Shown here: positions 6,932 through 59,138 of the stretch, piece after piece
Position numbering within the stretch: the first letter of the stretch is position 1
Layout: every line of letters begins with the position of its first letter
Source of the DNA: an uncultured Pirellulaceae bacterium
GTDB taxonomy: Bacteria; Planctomycetota; Planctomycetia; Pirellulales; Pirellulaceae
Assembly (NCBI GenBank): GCA_937929805.1
Contig: CALFUT010000031.1
Location: forward strand, 1 to 64,000
Reading direction: 5' to 3'
Length of the DNA: 64,000 nt
The notes under the pieces: model-generated
Databases searched by the model: none
Told to the model about the DNA's origin: nothing
What the model saw: only the letters and a program-made list of their open reading frames with translations
Translations under genes and position numbers: made by a program

Positions 6932-7100
6932 CGAAAAGGTGACTTGTACTAACCGAGTGTTTTGAGAGATCATACAGACACTGTTGCGCTCCTTCGTTTC
7001 GCGGGTTTGACAAAACGAATATGCGGGAGCGTAACACTTTTAAAAGACCAATCTTATGCAAGCTGTCCAGATTGACGACGTTTCAACATCCCAGCCTTGG

Positions 7101-7318
7101 CCTCCCGGATTGAGGCAGAAATTGGCTCGGACGGAGCCTTGCCCTCCCAGATTGGCGAAGAAGTTGGCTCGGACGGAGCCTTGCCCTCCCGGATTGAGGC
7201 ATAAGTTGGCTCGGGCGGAGCCTTGCCCTCCCGGATTTGCGCAGAAGTTGGCTCGGACGGAGCCTTGCCCTCCCGGATTTGCGCAGAAGTTGGCTCGGAC
7301 GGAGCCTCGCCCTCCCGG
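7101..7318 (+). repeat. five-copy 42-bp tandem repeat
   Basis: Units begin with CCTCCCGGAT at 7101, 7143, 7185, 7227 and 7269, with a partial sixth at 7311: an exact 42-base period with few differences. Each unit contains TTGGCTCGGACGGAGCCTTG, related to the GC-rich intergenic family at 221-372. Because 42 is divisible by three, both strands stay open. On the plus strand each unit would read as PPGFAQKLARTEPC, in frame with the following gene. Two units of the same 42-base period lie at 40489-40572. Confidence 0.9.
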
Positions 7319-40304: not shown

Positions 40305-40808
40305 AGCTGGGAGGGTAAGGCTCCGTCCGCACCCCTTTCAATGCTTCGCCCGCACCCCTTTCAATGCTTCGCCCGCACCCCGTTGCAAACCCCGCTGCGA
40401 TGCTCCGCCCGTACACCGCCTCAGAGATCCAGCCGAGCTGCCGGGATGAGAAGTCTTGTTCCGCCGTACGGCTCGGACGGAGCCTCGCCCTCCCGGATTG
40501 GCGCAGAAGTTGGCTCGGACGGAGCCTTGCTCTCCCGGATTTGCGCAGAAGTTGGGTCGGGCGGAGCCGTCAATATTTCTGGAGACGCCTTCTCGCTGGT
40601 CGCCAATCTTGGGTTTAGCAACGCTCCGTAGGTCGTTTCATAGATCTCGCGGGCCGCATCTAACAGAGTCGCGGCCATCGCGAGCGTAGTCAGTAGTTTC
40701 TGAGTTCACACCGCGTCACGTTGGCTATTCAGCTTGTAAGCAGAACCGAATGAGGGCTCGTCGTGGCGTACTATCAGCAGAGACTAACGCGACAGCCGGT
40801 CTAAAAGG
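40305..40808. repeat. GC-rich repeat block with two 42-bp units
   Basis: No gene is supported. The left part has GGAGGGTAAGGCTCCGTCCG and three copies of GCACCCC(T/G)TT followed by CAATGCTTCGCCC-like words. From 40489 come two 42-base units (40489, 40531) matching the array at 7101-7318, then a degenerate third. Simple stop-free reading on both strands is a by-product of the repeat. Confidence 0.8.
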
Positions 40809-49726: not shown

Positions 49727-50067
49727 AATATGTTTTCCTCGAAAGAGCTGTTGCTGAAATGCAGTTTGCCGGCTGCTGACGTTTTGTCATCTTTTGCCGG
49801 TGAACTGATCTGTTATTACGCAACCATCGTGCCAAACAGCGTCATACGGGGTTTTATCCTGCGTTTTTCCACTCGAAACGCTTACAGAAAGCAAATCCAG
49901 AATCTTGGATTTCACAGCGTGATCCCAGCTTCGACCTGACAGGGAGACGATTCTGTCAGCCAGCTAAACGGATCGAGAAATGGCATTTGGTTGCCAAAAC
50001 GACGCAAAAATGCGGTCGCTAACAAATAAAGCCTTGTTCTCCCGAACGGTCGCTTGAGGCGAAAACA
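49727..50067. promoter_or_regulatory. hsp20 upstream region
   Basis: 340 bases between fabF and hsp20, both on the minus strand. It contains the palindrome AAATCCAGAATCTTGGATTT (49893-49912) and several T-rich tracts in the hsp20 sense. It likely holds the hsp20 promoter; I see no gene. Confidence 0.45.
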
Positions 50068-51312
50068 TCAGTCTTCGTATTTTGCCACAATCATCGAAGC
50101 GTTGTGACCGCCGAACCCAAAGCTGTTGCTCATCGCATAACGAATTTCGCGATCACGAGGCACATTCGGTGTGTAATCCAAATCGCAGTCAGGATCGGGA
50201 TCAGTCAGATTGATCGTAGGAGGAACTTTCGACTCCAAGATCGCTTTAATTGAAAGGATCAGCTCGATGCCACCACTGGCTCCCAGCGAATGTCCCAACT
50301 GACTTTTGGTACTGCTGATGCTGACATCTTTTGCAGCATCTCCGAAAACGGATTTGATCGCTTTGGTTTCTGCTTTATCACCTAACGGGGTGCTCGTACC
50401 GTGAGCGTTGATGTAATCAATCTGCTCAGCCTTCAAACCCGCGTGTTCTAGTGCGGCCACCATGGCGGCCGCGGCTCCGGTTCCGTTTTCGTCGGGAGAC
50501 GTAATATGCCCAGCGTCGCAAGTGGTTCCAAAACCAACGACTTCGGCCAGAATGTTCGCCCCCCGAGCTTTCGCGTGCTCCAATTCCTCGAACAGCAGCA
50601 GGCCAGCGCCTTCGGCGAACACAAAACCGTCGCGTCCGGAATCGAACGGACGACTAGCTTTGGTTGGTTCGTCGTTCCGGCCGGACAAAGCTTTCATGTT
50701 TTGGAAAGCACTAAGACCCATTCGAGTCATCCCAGACTCGGTTCCGCCCGATACGACAAAATCGCAAATGTTGCTACGGATCAGATCAAGCGAGTTGCCC
50801 AACGCGTTTCCTGCACTGGCACACGCAGTCGCGACGCTGTAGTTGGGGCCTCGGAATCCGTAACGGATTGCGATGTTGCCTCCACCCGCATTAAGCATCA
50901 GCTTGGGAATCGTCAGCGGCGAGACCCGCCCCGGCCCTTTATGAATCAACCGCTCCATCTGCTCGGAAATCGTGGTCATCCCACCAATCCCGGAGCCTAA
51001 CACGACACCAAAACGAGACTTATCGGGGTATTGATCAAGATCAATCCCACTGAACGTCATGGCTTTGTCGGCACAATATAGAGCCAACTGAGTGTATCGA
51101 TCGACCTTTTTGGCTTCCTTGGTGCCCAGCAAATCAGTGACATCCCAATCGTAGATATCGCCACCAATTTTGATCTTCATATCCGAAGTATCAAAAAGCT
51201 TGATATCGTGAATGCCACTTTCGCCGGCCAACACACGATTCCAACAGTCATCCACGTCGCAACTGAGTGATGTTGCAAGACCCCAACCGGTGACGACTAC
51301 ACGCCGTGTCAT
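50068..51312 (-). CDS. fabF: beta-ketoacyl-ACP synthase II
   Basis: Condensing enzyme for elongation of fatty acids. Catalytic Cys in NYSVATACASAGNALGN, His in YINAHGTSTPLGDKAE, second His in STKSQLGHSLGASGGIE, with SNSFGFGGHNAS at the C-terminus. N-terminal MTRRVVVTGWGLATSLSCDV. 414 residues from the ATG at 51312; the frame opens 51 bases further. Last gene of the fabD-fabG-acpP-fabF order, separated from acpP by a leader with a strong hairpin. Confidence 0.94.
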   Translation of the reverse strand: MTRRVVVTGWGLATSLSCDVDDCWNRVLAGESGIHDIKLFDTSDMKIKIGGDIYDWDVTDLLGTKEAKKVDRYTQLALYCADKAMTFSGIDLDQYPDKSRFGVVLGSGIGGMTTISEQMERLIHKGPGRVSPLTIPKLMLNAGGGNIAIRYGFRGPNYSVATACASAGNALGNSLDLIRSNICDFVVSGGTESGMTRMGLSAFQNMKALSGRNDEPTKASRPFDSGRDGFVFAEGAGLLLFEELEHAKARGANILAEVVGFGTTCDAGHITSPDENGTGAAAAMVAALEHAGLKAEQIDYINAHGTSTPLGDKAETKAIKSVFGDAAKDVSISSTKSQLGHSLGASGGIELILSIKAILESKVPPTINLTDPDPDCDLDYTPNVPRDREIRYAMSNSFGFGGHNASMIVAKYED

Positions 51313-51706
51313 ACGTTTGCCTGTGATACGAAGAGGTGACTGCTTAGAATGAAGCCGCAACAAAACTCAGTGCGGCTGAACAACAAAACATTTCGCGGCT
51401 GGGTACTCAAGGACCAACTCAAACGAGCGAATTTTGGCCAAACGTCCTAAGCAACGCTCTGGAACCCTCGCCACAAAACTACTCTCATCCGAAAACGAAA
51501 CGACGGACGATCAATAAAAGCTGGTGCCCTAAAACAAATTCCGCACAAGGAAGGCTTTCGGCACTCCTCGTGCGGAAGAAAAAATTCTGTGAACAACCGA
51601 GTCATTTCACCTGCCTAGTTAAAAACTTACGCCCCAAGTGTTCCGAAAAACGAAACAAAATCTTGGGACAATGGCACGCGCTACAGCTTGGGCTGATTCA
51701 ATTTAT
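51313..51706. promoter_or_regulatory. acpP-fabF intergenic with hairpin
   Basis: About 390 bases. TTCCGCAC (51539-51546) and GTGCGGAA (51570-51577) form an 8-bp stem that in minus-strand sense is followed by TTTGTTTT, so it may end or attenuate the acpP transcript before fabF. An inner CGGCAC.. is compatible with a branched structure. No gene is supported. Confidence 0.6.
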
Positions 51707-51952
51707 TCAGGAGGCCGCAGAGGCGTTGCTGTTGATATGACTGATCGCTTCGCCAACGGTCTGAATTTTTTCAGCCGCGTCGTCCGCGATATTGATATCG
51801 AACTCCTCTTCTAACTCCATCACCAGCTCGACTGTATCCAGCGAGTCAGCACCCAGATCGTTAACGAAGTTCGACTCTGGTTTGATTTTATCTTTATCGA
51901 CACCAAGTTGCTCGGCGACGATGTTAACAACACGTTCTTCGACCGACGACAT
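51707..51952 (-). CDS. acpP: acyl carrier protein
   Basis: 81 residues, small and acidic. The phosphopantetheine Ser is in the invariant [20 protein letters not shown]. The helix starting [16 protein letters not shown] and the C-terminal [14 protein letters not shown] are typical. ATG with GGAGG upstream. It lies between fabG and fabF, and carries growing acyl chains for all enzymes of the cluster. Confidence 0.96.
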
Positions 51953-52185
51953 AAATCGGCCTCCTTCTCTGAAAACTACTGTACGGAGAACTTTAACTTT
52001 TGATTGATTCGCACCACTCTTTCGAACGATGCAGGACTGCGATCTGCCTGCGACAAATCGGGTATGCCCTTATTTCAAGTGCCTGAGAATAGAGGATAAG
52101 GACAAAATAGGTCAAGCCAGAATTGCCCCAAAACCCTGTTTTCTTCGCGCTGAAACGATACCCAAGTTCTACCAGAACCACATGA

Positions 52186-52947
52186 TTACGCGGTCATGCC
52201 GCCATCGACGGTTAAAACCTGACCGGTTACGTAACTTGCTGCGGGGCTGGCTAGAAACAGCACACAAGCCGAAACATCGTCCGGAGTGCCGATTCGGTTG
52301 GCAGGAATGCGTTTTTTGACCTCGCCAAGGATCGTATCGCCCAATTTGGCCGTCATTTCAGACTCGATAAATCCTGGCGCGACCGCGTTGACGGTGACTT
52401 TTCGCTTGCCCAGCTCTTTTGAGAGACTGCGAGTCATCCCGATCACGCCAGCCTTTGATGCCGAGTAATTCGTTTGACCAGCGTTTCCAATCAAGCCAGA
52501 GACGCTAGAGATATTGATGATCCGGCCATAACGCTTTCGCATCATCTTTTGCGACGCGGCTCGAGTGAACAAGAACGTCCCTCTCAGATTCACCGCGATC
52601 ACGTCATCCCACTGCTCGTCCGTCATCACCGGCAGCAGGGTGTCACGAGTAATCCCGGCATTGTTAACCAAGATATCCAGCTGCCCCCATTCCTCGGCAA
52701 CCGTTTCCACGATCTTTTCGATGTTCTCTTTCACGCTCACGTCCGCCGCCATGACGTCCGCTGCGCCACCCGCGTCAGTGATCGCTTTGACCGTTTCGGC
52801 CAGTTTCTGTTCGTTGCGAGCCACACACGCGACACGCGCTCCGGCGGCGCCCAATGCGATGGCCATCGATCGACCCAATCCCTGCGAGGCACCGGTGACG
52901 ATGGCGTTCTGACCTGACAGGTCAACTTTTAATGATTCAAGACTCAT
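52186..52947 (-). CDS. fabG: 3-oxoacyl-ACP reductase
   Basis: NADPH-dependent short-chain dehydrogenase reducing 3-oxoacyl-ACP. Rossmann motif [23 protein letters not shown] in [14 protein letters not shown], catalytic triad Ser ([13 protein letters not shown]) and YSASK ([13 protein letters not shown]), and the C-terminal [12 protein letters not shown]. 253 residues. Its start codon lies directly beside a long heptamer repeat region that forms its 5' leader, most unusual for a housekeeping gene. Confidence 0.95.
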
Positions 52948-52972
52948 GGTTTTTCAAGTTTCAAGTGTGTAG

Positions 52973-53191
52973 TTTTCAGTTTTCAGTTTTCAGTTTTCAG
53001 AGTTCAGAGTTCAGAGTTCAGAGTTCAGAGTTCAGAGTTCAGAGTTCAGAGTTCAGAGTTCAGAGTTCAGAGTTCAGAGTTCAGAGTTCAGAGTTCAGGC
53101 GTACTCAGTACTCAGTACTCAGTACTCAGTACTCAGTACTCAGTACTCAGTACTCAGTACTCAGCATTCCGCATTCCGCATTCCGCATTCC
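52973..53191. repeat. four adjacent heptanucleotide arrays in the fabG leader
   Basis: Consecutive perfect arrays, all period seven: TTTTCAG x4 (52973-53000), AGTTCAG x14 (53001-53098), a GC dinucleotide, GTACTCA x9 (53101-53163), and GCATTCC x4 (53164-53191). They fill nearly the whole gap between the fabD stop (53194) and the fabG start. A non-repetitive neighbour around 52950-52970 (TTCAAGTTTCAAGTG) looks related. Each array is a different word, so this is not one expanding locus. Confidence 0.95.
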
Positions 53192-53193
53192 CA

Positions 53194-54105
53194 TCACTCT
53201 CCCACGCCGTGAAAGGTAACTTTGCGATTGATCCGCTTCATTAGGCCACGCAGCACTCGGCCACTGCCAATTTCATAAAATTCGTCATAGCCGTCTGCCA
53301 ACATTTGTTCCATCGAACCCTGCCACAGCACCGGCGAGCAAACTTGCTTCACCAACAACGATCGAAAATCGTCTGGTTTTTGATGAACCTGCGCATCAAC
53401 ATTGGAATAAACCGGCAACCGAGTTTCAGACATCTCCGTTCCATCGAGCGCCGACTTTAGCTTGTCGACCGCCGACTCCATCATGCCGGTATGAAACGCG
53501 CCGGCAACGGAAAGAGGAATGCACTTCATTGCACCGGCCTCCGTCGCGATCGCCTCAACTGCCTCGCACGACTTCTGCCCACCCGAGACAACAATGTTCC
53601 CTTTGCACAACAAGTTCGCGATCTGCAGCACTTCGCCGTCAACGCGAGCCTTTTCGCAAACCTCTTGGACAACTTCACGGTCCAGCCCAAGCACGCTGAC
53701 CATCGATCCGGCTGTCTGATCGGCTGCCGCCTGCATCACCTGACCACGAAGCTGGACCAATTTTAGGCCATCCTCAAAACTCATTCCTCCAGCGAACGCA
53801 ATCGCGGTGTACTCGCCCAAGCTCAACCCCGCCGTTCCGGCACAGCTTTCGACAACGTCGGGCGATTCTTGCTTCAGCTTCTCCAACGCAATCATGCTGG
53901 TCACAAATAGAGCCGGCTGGCTGATCTCTGTCATGTTCAGCCGATCAGCAGGGCCGTTAAAACAAACGTCCGCAAGATCGAATCCAAGCACGTCCGACGC
54001 ATGATCAAACATCTTCACCGCCACCGGCAATTCGTCGAATAACGACTTACCCATGCCGATCGATTGAGCCCCTTGGCCCGGAAACAGGAACGCAATTTTA
54101 CTCAA
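53194..54105 (-). CDS. fabD: malonyl-CoA:ACP transacylase
   Basis: Moves malonyl from CoA to ACP. The nucleophile elbow reads GLSLGEYTAIAFAGG; the N-terminal FLFPGQGAQSIGMGK is diagnostic; the catalytic His is in VAGAFHTGMMES; QLRGQVMQ carries the conserved Arg. 303 residues, normal. It is the first of the fab genes in transcription order, 128 bases after ruvB. Confidence 0.95.
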   Translation of the reverse strand: MSKIAFLFPGQGAQSIGMGKSLFDELPVAVKMFDHASDVLGFDLADVCFNGPADRLNMTEISQPALFVTSMIALEKLKQESPDVVESCAGTAGLSLGEYTAIAFAGGMSFEDGLKLVQLRGQVMQAAADQTAGSMVSVLGLDREVVQEVCEKARVDGEVLQIANLLCKGNIVVSGGQKSCEAVEAIATEAGAMKCIPLSVAGAFHTGMMESAVDKLKSALDGTEMSETRLPVYSNVDAQVHQKPDDFRSLLVKQVCSPVLWQGSMEQMLADGYDEFYEIGSGRVLRGLMKRINRKVTFHGVGE

Positions 54106-54233
54106 CGGTTTGTCTCACAAGAAAGAAAAATGGCCTCCGCGGCGCCGCCACTAGGATCGACAATCTATGGCCCGCTTTTTCGAGTGTCAACGTGGGCAAA
54201 TCCCGCCAGCCACCACGCTGACTTGAACGACGA

Positions 54234-55256
54234 TCAGTCAAACAGAGCGGATCCTTCACTGGTTCCCGGCGGATCGAGATTCATATGAGCAAATGCCTTC
54301 GGTGTCGCGACTCGGCCACGCGGCGTTCGAAGAATCAATTCGCTCCGCAGCAAGAATGGCTCGACTTCGTCCGCCAAAGTATCGGTCACCGAATTCATCG
54401 TCGCAGCCAACGTCTCAATCCCCGTCGGCCCGCCCATGCAGACTCGGATCAGCGTGTCCAAATACTTTCGGTCCTGTCGGTCCAGCCCCAAGCCATCGAT
54501 CTCGGCCATTTTCAATGCGTCGCGGGCTACCTCCAACGTAATTTTTCCTGCCGCGCGGCTTTGAGCGAAATCACGCACCCAGCGGAGTCGATTGTTTGCC
54601 ACTCGAGGCGTACTGCGACTGCGAGCCGCAATCTCAATCGCCGCCTCTTGCTCGATCTCCACCGAAAGCTTCCCAGCGTTGCCCGTCACGATTTGAGCAA
54701 GCTCTTCCAGCGAGTAAAAATCTAACCGCTCACGAAGTTGAAAACGATCTCGCAGCGGACCGGTCAGCATTCCCGCTCGCGTCGTCGCGCCGATCAAGGT
54801 GAATGGGCGTAGCTTGAAGTTATGAGTCCTCGCATTGATCCCCTCGCCCAAAATCATGTCGATGCGAAAATCTTCCATCGCCGTGTACATGTACTCTTCG
54901 ACCGCTTTGGGAATGCGGTGAATTTCGTCAATGAACAAAACCTGTTTGGCTCGCAAGTTCGTCAGACTCGGCACCAGATCTTTGGGAGCTTTTAAACTGG
55001 GGCCGGACAAAAAATCCACATGCACGCCCAGTTCGGCCGGAATACAAGTCGCAAAGGTCGTCTTGCCAAGCCCCGGCGGCCCATCAAACAGAATATGCCC
55101 CAGCACTTCATCGCGCTGCCGAGCCGCATCGATCGCGATTTGCAGTCGCTCAATCACGTCGCGCTGACCAATCATGTCGCTCATTCGCGTCGGTCGCAGC
55201 GTCGGATCGTCGTCCTTCGCATCGGGCTTGTTGGAAAGTATCGTTTCGCGAGCCAT
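54234..55256 (-). CDS. ruvB: Holliday junction branch-migration helicase RuvB
   Basis: AAA+ motor that drives branch migration with RuvA. Walker A GPPGLGKTTFA, Walker B FIDEIHRIPKAVEEYMYTAM, sensor segments GATTRAGMLTGPLRDRF and the RuvB C-terminal DNA-binding winged helix (GPTGIETLAATM, EPFLLRSELILRTPRGRV). 340 residues. ATG at 55256. It is upstream of fabD on the same strand; RuvA/RuvC are not in the window. Confidence 0.96.
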   Translation of the reverse strand: MARETILSNKPDAKDDDPTLRPTRMSDMIGQRDVIERLQIAIDAARQRDEVLGHILFDGPPGLGKTTFATCIPAELGVHVDFLSGPSLKAPKDLVPSLTNLRAKQVLFIDEIHRIPKAVEEYMYTAMEDFRIDMILGEGINARTHNFKLRPFTLIGATTRAGMLTGPLRDRFQLRERLDFYSLEELAQIVTGNAGKLSVEIEQEAAIEIAARSRSTPRVANNRLRWVRDFAQSRAAGKITLEVARDALKMAEIDGLGLDRQDRKYLDTLIRVCMGGPTGIETLAATMNSVTDTLADEVEPFLLRSELILRTPRGRVATPKAFAHMNLDPPGTSEGSALFD

Positions 55257-55489
55257 CGAAAATCGGGCCTCAACTTGCGTTGATCGTTAAAGTTTGCGTT
55301 GCTTTTCAAAACCAGACTATACCACTGTCCACCAATGAACGGGAACCGCAATCGCTTCAAATCCACGCGGATCCCTTCGCCCACATTGGCTGCCGCAGCA
55401 CATTTTCGATCGCCGTCACGAATTTCCCGGCACTTTGTCCGACTGCCTGAACGACCAAGACGCTATGGCCGACGACAACATGCACTAGA

Positions 55490-57118
55490 ATGGGTGGCAG
55501 CATGAAGAAATCTCGAAAATTCAACCGATCGCTCGGCACTTACTTCGACCGCAGCGCCGAACCGATCTACCTTGTCAGTGCCGACCGGCAAATCGTTTAC
55601 ATGAACGCCGCCTGTTTGGCGTGGGTGGGATTGGACGCCGATCACGCTGATGACTTGCAGTGCTTCTTCACGTCGGAGGATACGATTGAGCCGAAAGATG
55701 ATCCGGTCAAGGGACTTTGTCCTCCCCCGGAACTCTTTTCCGATTCCCACGACGACGGAACTCTTTCCGATCAAACTCAATCCATTGCCGGGCCGATCAC
55801 CACGAGCGTCTTCGTTTCACTGCCCAAAGGAACCGAAACTCGGCCCGCCACGTTTCACCGCCTGCTGAACGAGGAACAACAACTGCTGGGAGTGCTGGGC
55901 GTTGTCAGCGCGAACTGCGAAAGCAACTCAAGCGAACCAAACGCCACCTCCGCCGATCCATCCACATCGAGCCAGTCTCAAGCCCTTCACACCGCGCTGG
56001 CAATGCTCCGGCAGCACCATGCCGACAACTACGCAATGGGGAACCTGATCGGAACGAGCCCCTTCGCCGATCGATTGCGTCGACAGACTGCGGCCATCAT
56101 TGGATTGGATGCCGAAACCGTCATCACCGGCCCCCCGGGCAGTGGCCGCGAACATTTGGCTCGCACGATCGCAGCGTCCGGCACCGAAAGCGAAGATTTC
56201 TCAGTCGCCGTTTTGCATTGCGTGCTGGCCGATGACGAACTGACGCAGCAATCGATCGACCAAGTCGCCAACCAGATCACGAAACGAACACGACGCGGCC
56301 GCGCGGTGCCGGTTGCATCCGACCAACAAACGCACCCGATTCTGCTGTTGCTGGACATCGACAAACTAATCGGTTCCGCGCTGTTGCTGGTCGAAAGCTT
56401 TTTAAAACGCAGCGGCGATGCGTGCCGAGTCATCGCGACATCGGAAACCTCGTTGGTGGAACTTGCCACTCAAAACAAGTTCCCTGCTGGCATTGCTCAT
56501 CAGTTGACCACGATCGAAGTCCCGTTAATTTCTCTCGCTCAGCGACGCGAAGACATTCCCCTGATGGCTCAGGCGTTCGTCGAACATGCCAACCGATCGC
56601 GCGAGCATCAACTTGGGGGATTCGACGACGCTTCCATGCAGTTGCTGAACGAGTTCCATTGGCCCGGCAATTTGGAGCAGCTTCAACAGGTGGTTACCGC
56701 CGCCTGCGATCATGCGACCGGTCCAAAAATTCAGGTCGACGATCTACCTGACTCGTTTCGACACGCCGTCCAAGCGTTTCGAATTGGCGATCCGGAAGAA
56801 ACGACAATTGACTTGACCCAATGGATCGAGCAACTGGAATTGGAACTGATCCAACGCGCTCTCCTGCAATCGAAAGGCAACAAAACCAAAGCGGCCCAAC
56901 TGCTAAGCATTTCTCGATCGCGGCTGATCCGGCGGATGGGGCACTTCGAACTTTCAGCGTCTACCGAAGAGAAAACTAAAGGGAAAACTAAAGGGAAAGC
57001 CAAAGGGAAAGCCAAAGGGAAAGATTCGCCGAGCGATCAGAGCACGCCCGATGACACTCCGCCGACCGAATCGGATAACCAAATGATCGATCCTTCCGCG
57101 TTCGAGGAATTGGAATGA
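55490..57118 (+). CDS. sigma54-activator-like AAA+ protein lacking the GAFTGA loop
   Basis: Residues about 12-130 form a PAS-like domain (AEPIYLVSADRQIVYMNAAC). The AAA+ domain follows: a degenerate Walker A (TGPPGSGREHLARTIA) near residue 214, Walker B-like ILLLLDIDKL near residue 283, LAQRREDIPLMAQAFVEHAN and a roadblock-like FHWPGNLEQLQQVV typical of bacterial enhancer-binding proteins. The sigma54-contacting GAFTGA loop is not present. A Fis-type HTH (NKTKAAQLLSISRSRLIRRM) sits near residue 463, then a Lys/Gly repeat tail. It therefore probably binds DNA without activating sigma54. Start ATG at 55490 or 55502. The stop overlaps the next gene by four bases. Confidence 0.8.
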   Translation: MGGSMKKSRKFNRSLGTYFDRSAEPIYLVSADRQIVYMNAACLAWVGLDADHADDLQCFFTSEDTIEPKDDPVKGLCPPPELFSDSHDDGTLSDQTQSIAGPITTSVFVSLPKGTETRPATFHRLLNEEQQLLGVLGVVSANCESNSSEPNATSADPSTSSQSQALHTALAMLRQHHADNYAMGNLIGTSPFADRLRRQTAAIIGLDAETVITGPPGSGREHLARTIAASGTESEDFSVAVLHCVLADDELTQQSIDQVANQITKRTRRGRAVPVASDQQTHPILLLLDIDKLIGSALLLVESFLKRSGDACRVIATSETSLVELATQNKFPAGIAHQLTTIEVPLISLAQRREDIPLMAQAFVEHANRSREHQLGGFDDASMQLLNEFHWPGNLEQLQQVVTAACDHATGPKIQVDDLPDSFRHAVQAFRIGDPEETTIDLTQWIEQLELELIQRALLQSKGNKTKAAQLLSISRSRLIRRMGHFELSASTEEKTKGKTKGKAKGKAKGKDSPSDQSTPDDTPPTESDNQMIDPSAFEELE

Positions 57119-58889: not shown

Positions 58890-59138
58890 CTACTTCTTGC
58901 GCTTTGCAGCTTTCTTCTTTTTCTTCACGACCTTCTTCTTTTTCTTGGTCGCTTTTTTCTTCTTAGTAGCCTTCTTTTTCTTCTTAGCTACTTTCTTCTT
59001 CTTAGTAGCCTTCTTTTTCTTCTTGGCTACTTTCTTCTTCTTAGTAGCCTTCTTTTTCTTCTTGGCTACTTTTTTCTTCTTAGCTACTTTTTTCTTCGTT
59101 GCCTTTTTCTTGGCAACCTTCTTTTTCTTCTTGGCCAC
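58890..59138 (-). CDS. lysine-only histone-H1-like DNA-binding protein
   Basis: 82 residues that are about 70 percent Lys with Ala, Val and Thr: repeats of KKKKVAKKKKKATKK-type blocks of about 12 residues. This is the tail module of bacterial H1-like proteins, expected to bind and compact DNA without sequence specificity. A GTG at 59138 is the only sensible start; a GGAGG lies about seven bases upstream. No globular domain is present. Repeat-driven length change is likely between strains. Downstream it faces mrp across a terminator; upstream is an AT-rich CpG-dense non-coding block. Confidence 0.85.
   Translation of the reverse strand: MAKKKKKVAKKKATKKKVAKKKKVAKKKKKATKKKKVAKKKKKATKKKKVAKKKKKATKKKKATKKKKKVVKKKKKAAKRKK

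Follow-up and report, generated by a model that had tools for sequence, protein, structure and literature searches.

The STRR (short tandemly repeated repetitive) heptamers of heterocystous cyanobacteria are arranged in tandem and dispersed between genes, and long simple sequence repeats of unit seven, perfect and longer than chance, are reportedly the commonest long-unit repeats in many genomes (Mrazek et al. 2007, as cited in PMC4679880). The closest precedent for the arrays considered here is the TAACTGA heptamer found before start codons, which forms direct repeats in marine Beggiatoaceae, Cyanobacteria and Bacteroidetes and for which translational regulation was proposed (MacGregor 2015, PMC4679880). 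That report also describes other orientations of TAACTGA in Microcystis and holds that the tolerated sites and orientations would depend on coding potential and folding, a remark that anticipates part of our present reading. A second group comprises the GGGAATC heptamers of Xanthomonas and the GGGGA(T/C)T heptamers of Nostoc, which are quadruplex-forming with G tracts of at least 3; the paper on them mentions the Calothrix report on STRR heptamers and states that a detailed heptamer literature was lacking (PMC4692102). Heptamer-derived satellites have been described in Chloroflexus in a study that also lists Rhodopirellula (PMC6749651). For mixed-word heptamer leaders in planctomycetes we found no description in a literature search that reached few subscription papers. 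Apparently new are the mixed-word order, an orientation that matches folding, a shift of word between sister species, and a ruvC gene with a CTG in the repeat as its only near-start codon.

The window, by which we mean the whole 64-kb stretch of DNA analysed here, carries four such arrays between fabD and fabG. Both genes lie on the minus strand, and the transcript therefore carries the plus-strand words in reverse complement, as GGAATGC, TGAGTAC, TGAACTC and TGAAAAC. Read along the mRNA, the gap consists of the fabD stop, TG, GGAATGC x4 (thus beginning 2 nt past the stop), TGAGTAC x9, GCC, TGAACTC x14, TGAAAAC x4, TACACACTTGAAACTTGAAAAACC and ATG, within the following features:

53194 to 54105, minus strand: fabD, malonyl-CoA:ACP transacylase (PF00698, E 5.3e-27)
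53164 to 53191, minus strand: GGAATGC x4 in mRNA sense (plus strand GCATTCC x4), exact copies; GGA-type, in a predicted hairpin domain
53101 to 53163, minus strand: TGAGTAC x9 in mRNA sense (plus strand GTACTCA x9), exact copies; self-complementary GTAC-type
53098 to 53100, minus strand: GCC slip at the junction of the second and third arrays; the plus-strand AGTTCAG x14 likewise ends at 53098
53000 to 53097, minus strand: TGAACTC x14 in the mRNA register, exact; plus-strand AGTTCAG x14 at 53001-53098
52972 to 52999, minus strand: start-proximal TGAAAAC x4 in the mRNA register, exact; plus-strand TTTTCAG x4 at 52973-53000; unpaired in the predicted fold
52948 to 52971, minus strand: 24-nt unique leader tail to the fabG ATG, by eye like the 24-nt tail of the sister species (G182)
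52186 to 52947, minus strand: fabG, 3-oxoacyl-ACP reductase (PF13561, E 1.3e-70; PF00106)
51707 to 51952, minus strand: acyl carrier protein (PF00550)
50068 to 51363, minus strand: fabF, beta-ketoacyl-ACP synthase (PF00109 and PF02801)

Each of the four arrays that an earlier note on this DNA had reported is exact in the sequence; its description of the gap as nearly all heptamers is borne out by 221 of the 246 nt from the fabG ATG to the fabD stop (90%), and its gene names fabD and fabG agree with Pfam, which then gives ACP and FabF. Copy numbers are those assembled in a 74-contig draft, and their exact values are uncertain. The longest unbroken period-7 run in the gap covers 96 positions, as compared to a maximum of 8 in 200 shuffles of the gap; as a perfect 7-nt tandem longer than chance the gap belongs to the general class of heptanucleotide simple sequence repeats, whose description does not extend to word order, gene orientation or word shift. 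All four words fit KGANNNC in a single register, which is broken once, by the 3-base slip (GCC) that separates array two from array three. Further runs of at least two copies of TTTTCAG, AGTTCAG, GTACTCA or GCATTCC occur nowhere else in the 64 kb. A search of Rfam at gathering score returned 0 matches over 50000-56000 of the window, a promoter search of the gap returned no sigma-70-like site, and the one terminator-like site (plus strand, 52910-52924; 0.2 expected by chance) lies within fabG. The plus-strand ORF at 52932-53219 is an open frame across the repeats, and we do not regard it as a gene. Elsewhere in the window, a lysine-rich frame (VAKKKKKVAKKK...) lies on 18-39 bp tandem repeats at 58890-59138, and GGCTCGGACGGAGCCTCGCCCTCCCG repeats form 42-bp tandem units at 7093-7318 and 40470-40568; single GGCTCGGACGGAGCCTCGCCCTCCCG-type copies adjoin heptamer arrays at loci L044, L156, L163 and L218.

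In the source genome (G000, 4.2 Mb) the pattern KGANNNCx4 has 126 overlapping matches, as compared to 0 for the backward-read pattern, and the matches listed fall into at least 23 same-register places, merged by hand, a few of which are mixed units rather than perfect arrays. AGTTCAGx3 has its only site in the fabG gap; TGAAAAC, TGAACCC, TGAACAC, GGAATGC and GGAGGTC recur at unrelated genes. The earlier note had treated the arrays as part of the fabG leader and counted a widespread intergenic family without relation to fab genes as an argument against its idea. The latter is partly the case, in that the family is genome-wide and not special to fabG, but where its arrays lie with respect to start and stop codons, and which way they point, is strongly non-random. 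A period survey of 464 kb, i.e., the window and 20 stretches picked without regard to arrays, on contigs that are known to carry them, gave 6 runs and 272 nt for period 7, mostly from the window array, together with 16 runs for period 3, 3 for period 4 and 0-2 for each other period from 5 to 15.

Within the family, TGAAAACx3 was found in 17 of 199 genomes, representing 12 of 68 genera, and the reversed word in 0. We rejected the heptamer word as a phylum universal, TGAAAACx3 occurring in 4 of 392 genomes and the reversed control in 2 of 392, barely above control outside the family; the enrichment therefore belongs to the family. The reversed-word control of CGAAAACx3 matched 1 of 28 genomes of the genus (G160, 10 matches). 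Exact copies of the compound TGAACCCx2-TGAAAACx2 are present in a Wenzhouxiangella record and a Chthonomonas MAG; in the former an ATG follows about 35 nt after the array, and in the latter the array lies past a frame ending in TGA (both by eye). The period in relatives is not always seven, since one of them (G025; L100-L104, L225) has TGAAAAC heptamers beside octamers such as TGAATCAC. A mobile element as carrier was also rejected, the arrays standing at unrelated loci without common flanks outside the repeats (by eye).

Like the TAACTGA repeats, which according to PMC4679880 form intergenic arrays, in BOGUAY mostly forward and just 5' of starts without a clear Shine-Dalgarno (SD) sequence, and which are patchy across phyla with 7-nt indels between related strains, the arrays described here are intergenic and patchily distributed; TAACTGA itself, rotated to TGATAAC, fits KGANNNC. 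TGATAACx3, on the other hand, occurs in 0 of 28 congeneric genomes, G000 included. Related heptamers are rarely repeated according to the same report, whereas the arrays described here are ordered mosaics of many related words, with a word that changes from one sister species to the other and an orientation that follows the predicted folding. The GGGAATC and GGGGA(T/C)T repeats are similarly intergenic, G-rich, perfect or heterogeneous, and close in their letters to GGAATGC and GGAATTC, but no word of the window contains GGG, GGAATGC and GGAGGTC have only GG pairs, and the start-proximal words have one G. With the STRR heptamers the arrays have in common that they are tandem and scattered between genes.

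Orientation was counted for 82 arrays of at least 3 units of TGAAAAC, CGAAAAC, CGAACAC or TGAACAC (A-rich arrays), from G000 and relatives among the matches listed, with genes called by a codon-usage script made for this analysis; places at or near contig ends (G078:C56, G120:C873, G120:C1031, G210:C288) were left out of the locus set. Of the 82, 35 lie in sense and 0 in antisense in the 50 nt that precede a start codon, i.e., in the intergenic, forward, near-start placement of the TAACTGA type, and G000 alone gives 9 sense vs. 0 antisense (p = 0.004, though orientation p-values overstate because related genomes and orthologous sites were counted separately). Between 50 and 100 nt before a start the numbers are 5 sense and 4 antisense, and six arrays within called frames were left uncounted (sense L151, L206, L209, L212 and L220; antisense L214). 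The remaining 38 A-rich arrays have no start within 100 nt; in 14 of them the 3' end faces an opposing stop at most 50 nt away, and in 2 it is the 5' end that points to a stop; G025 supplies 5 of 18 stop-facing cases. The polarity of 30 GGA-type arrays is different, with 0 sense and 7 antisense before starts and 12 sense and 6 antisense behind stops. The array-led start codons look real. ATG is used in 29 of 35 as compared to 138 of 259 called genes, and the coding score of the first 20 codons after arrays is 0.102 (called genes 0.059, upstream stretches -0.051).

Predicted folding around array-led starts (-60 to +30, n = 35) averages -5.4 kcal/mol, as compared to -16.4 with the leader flipped, -8.7 when shuffled and -18.0 for 301 leaders of G000. 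When leader cores as placed are set against the same cores flipped, the GGA cores are less folded in 7 of 7 and the A-type cores less folded in 13 and more in 0, giving 20 less, 0 more and 22 ties for both together; ordinary leaders have a mild bias (121 less, 84 more, 14 ties). The ties are all among the 35 A-type cores and TGAAAAC is predicted to fold on neither strand, so that folding does not explain the TGAAAAC polarity. Behind stops, GGA trailer cores are more folded as placed in 8 cases, less in 1 and tied in 2, and A-type trailer cores more in 3, less in 1 and tied in 11. On these predictions, both word classes put the less-folding strand in the leader. For fabG itself the four arrayed leaders range from -2.0 to -6.5 and the 23 array-free ones average -11.4 (range -17.5 to -1.2; one-sided p = 0.003), though some of the latter are equally low (-1.2, -5.2). 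The predicted fold of the window gap places nt 1-120 (GGAATGC, TGAGTAC and the first TGAACTC units) in one domain of -52.8 kcal/mol, followed by a weak domain at 123-190 (68 nt, -6.1) and then 56 unpaired nt to the ATG; ten TGAGTAC units alone are predicted at -42.9 kcal/mol. Where GTAC-type and A-type blocks are paired (13 pairs from 11 loci), the GTAC-type block is the more 5' one in 12, L224 being the exception.

SD-like motifs are present in 47 of 226 leaders vs. 36 in shuffles, or 28 of 149 vs. 15.9 in a narrower count, i.e., in about a fifth of leaders and at 1.3 to 1.8 times chance. Planctomycetes are among the phyla with small SD-gene fractions, and non-SD starts fold more weakly, according to PMC5397173. 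SD loss as a trigger for arrays was rejected, as such motifs were present in 10 of 42 leaders from five array-bearing relatives (G199, G119, G212, G211, G208) and in 14 of 64 from eight array-free ones, no clear difference in a small sample of 13 relatives. We likewise considered an all-frame stop barrier; the TGA words stop every frame, but the common CGA words of the sister species hold no stop, and such a barrier is therefore not a general function.

A FabD search of 28 congeneric genomes yielded 27 orthologous loci, one remote match being dropped. The fabD-fabG gap is arrayed in 4 of the 27, G000 included, with differing words (by eye): CGAGTAC x6 and CGAAAAC x3 in the sister species G182 (FabD 87% identity), CGAGTAC, TGAGTAC and then CACACAC and CGAAAAC units in G211, and CGAACAC x4 in G212. 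The other 23 gaps are 43-279 nt long and without clear arrays, that of L079 having a faint one (by eye). Repeats with longer periods are found in the gaps of G134 (L070) and G119 (L080). The arrays are dispensable, given that most congeners are without them at the fabG gap (23 of 27) and that TGAACACx3 is absent from 24 of 28 congeners and CGAAAACx3 from 20 of 28.

Array sites persist across species while their words turn over. For instance, L048 and L149 keep a unique spacer between the GGA-type and A-type block with differing words, L051/L158 and L115/L165 have repeats in both G000 and G182, and G210 and G212 appear to have four more common sites with differing words (L199/L206, L200/L209, L201/L207 and L205/L208; by eye). 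Counter to such turnover, the same three TGAAAAC units are retained at L233 and L234, which belong to two species of a different genus. The second array of L043 (4790-4900) is absent in G182 (L148), where the upstream gene end differs; the G000 frame called upstream of this array stops at a TGA within it.

The two sister species differ in their words. Matches to TGAAAACx3 number 47 in G000 vs. 0 in G182, those to TGAACACx3 10 vs. 0, to CGAAAACx3 4 vs. 28, and to CGAACACx3 14 vs. 13. Among the places listed, TGAAAAC occupies 9 in G000 vs. 0 in G182 and CGAAAAC 1 vs. 8 (Fisher p = 0.0004, or 0.0009 if the 8 places in G182 are 6, two contig-end pairs being possibly the same places to judge from their flanks). 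The 18 G182 loci were reached by BLAST with G000 arrays and lean to G000-like words. The shift from TGAAAAC to CGAAAAC is not total, TGAACCC before ruvC being kept in both species, and it may reflect copying between loci, a common selective cause or mutational bias.

Within arrays, the idea that several words of one period arose by partial replacement of their neighbours, also put forward in the earlier note, agrees with a sample of 106 chains, 228 blocks and 114 neighbouring pairs, in which neighbours are on average 2.16 of 7 positions apart when compared in register, as compared to 5.03 (random phase) and 2.66 (best phase) for random pairs. One base separates 40 of the 114 pairs and two bases 33, and 6 repeat the identical word after an interruption; the two-base differences are adjacent in 58% vs. 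33% expected (n = 33). Mutation with in-register expansion explains most junctions, but not the eight of 114 that differ by 5-7 changes.

We favour, with a probability of about 0.58, the reading that these are slippage-grown arrays that mutate and expand and are filtered by selection into low-structure leaders, the fabG leader being one member of a family and mainly a ribosome landing region, not a dedicated fabG switch. Arrays would grow by 7-nt slipped-strand events, and a point mutation in one unit might later be expanded in register, which would be why blocks of related words follow one another. Beside genes, where the orientation is observed and selection on mRNA structure is presumed, the orientations and block orders that suit the mRNA would persist, with folding words (GGAATGC, GTAC type) behind the upstream stop and scarcely folding words (TGAAAAC, CGAAAAC, CGAACAC) before the start codon. 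Such a leader may ease ribosome entry without strong SD pairing in an organism of modest SD use. This leader model leaves unexplained why arrays are polar to stop codons (14 vs. 2), why TGAAAAC is polar at all, why the period is seven and why other phyla have identical words. The dispensability of the arrays, the array-free fabG leaders that fold equally little, the similar SD use with and without arrays and the eight junctions of 5-7 changes also count against it. Alternatively, slippage might be purely neutral: GAAAAC-like seeds would be common in leaders and arrays would grow there, in the same orientation, without selection on the array. We regard this as quite possible, if on the unlikely side. 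GAAAAC is above expectation in 226 array-free leaders (13 sense and 7 antisense vs. 2.7-2.8), and both the patchy occurrence in 17 of 199 family genomes and the free variation of word and length between species fit; but seeds at 13 vs. 7 contrast with arrays at 35 vs. 0, the GGA arrays have an opposite polarity that matches the folding prediction, and the sites persist between species while the words change.

A factor that binds RNA or DNA, reads the word and coordinates many genes has been proposed for TAACTGA (PMC4679880), and the sister-species shift might represent a change of such a factor. The common vocabulary within a genome, the 9 vs. 0 and 1 vs. 8 places (p = 0.0004) and the presence of essential genes such as fabG among those preceded by arrays speak for it; the mixture of many words per genome, even within one leader, and the TGAACCC before ruvC that stays in both species while other words shift speak against it, and we think it improbable. 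The proposal in the earlier note that copy-number change between cells could alter fabG expression, i.e., a phase-variable switch, is very improbable: the arrays are long and perfect, and copy number and words of the gap do differ between species, but the family precedes many unrelated genes, and a period of 7 in a leader leaves the reading frame unchanged. That note had also raised the concern of an assembly artefact, and the 74-contig draft and the arrays at the very ends of several relatives' contigs (e.g., L098, L210, L220) might seem to justify it. With the window array inside a contig of 203,671 bases, the same gap arrayed in separately assembled congeners and CGAAAAC arrays in a one-contig genome (G199), we consider it scarcely credible for the array as such, and the concern is mostly answered, save for the exact copy numbers. 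If our preferred reading of the arrays as ribosome landing regions is true, simple-repeat growth would be a recurrent route to translation leaders in bacteria of modest SD use, and there would be many natural pairs (the same gene and site with another word, or with and without an array) in which to test what a leader needs.

More speculatively, and as a rather unlikely proposition, one evolving vocabulary might be common to arrays at dozens of unlinked leaders, with the favoured word shifting between sisters at several sites (TGAAAAC in G000, CGAAAAC in G182) while sites and block order stay. Either the word would have a common reader, or the repeats alone would be copied from locus to locus, through conversion or template switching. 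Dispersed simple repeats of bacterial leaders would then undergo concerted evolution and could even capture a start codon, as at ruvC. The sister-species shift makes it testable how simple repeats scattered over one genome acquire a common sequence. The ruvC arrays are:

G000:C6 near 126263 (L043, L168): CGAACAC x13 and TGAACCC x7 before ruvC
G182:C227 near 6920 (L148, L169): TAAACCC x5 and TGAACCC x5 before ruvC

The gene-proximal word is thus kept and the distal word differs. In both genomes there is no ATG, GTG or TTG between the last in-frame stop, a TGA in the array, and the conserved TRILGIDPG; the sole near-start codon is a CTG, which belongs to the last TGAACCC unit and is spaced like the ATG in relatives (e.g., L176). 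The other 26 ruvC loci have ATG in 23 and TTG in L180, L189 and L191 (by eye). This suggests that a conserved gene may even draw its start codon from an array, with CTG as the candidate. At the same G000 locus, a stretch of about 100 bp (L043:5789-5892) matches more than 30 places in G182 at approximately 70-80% identity and represents another dispersed repeat family.
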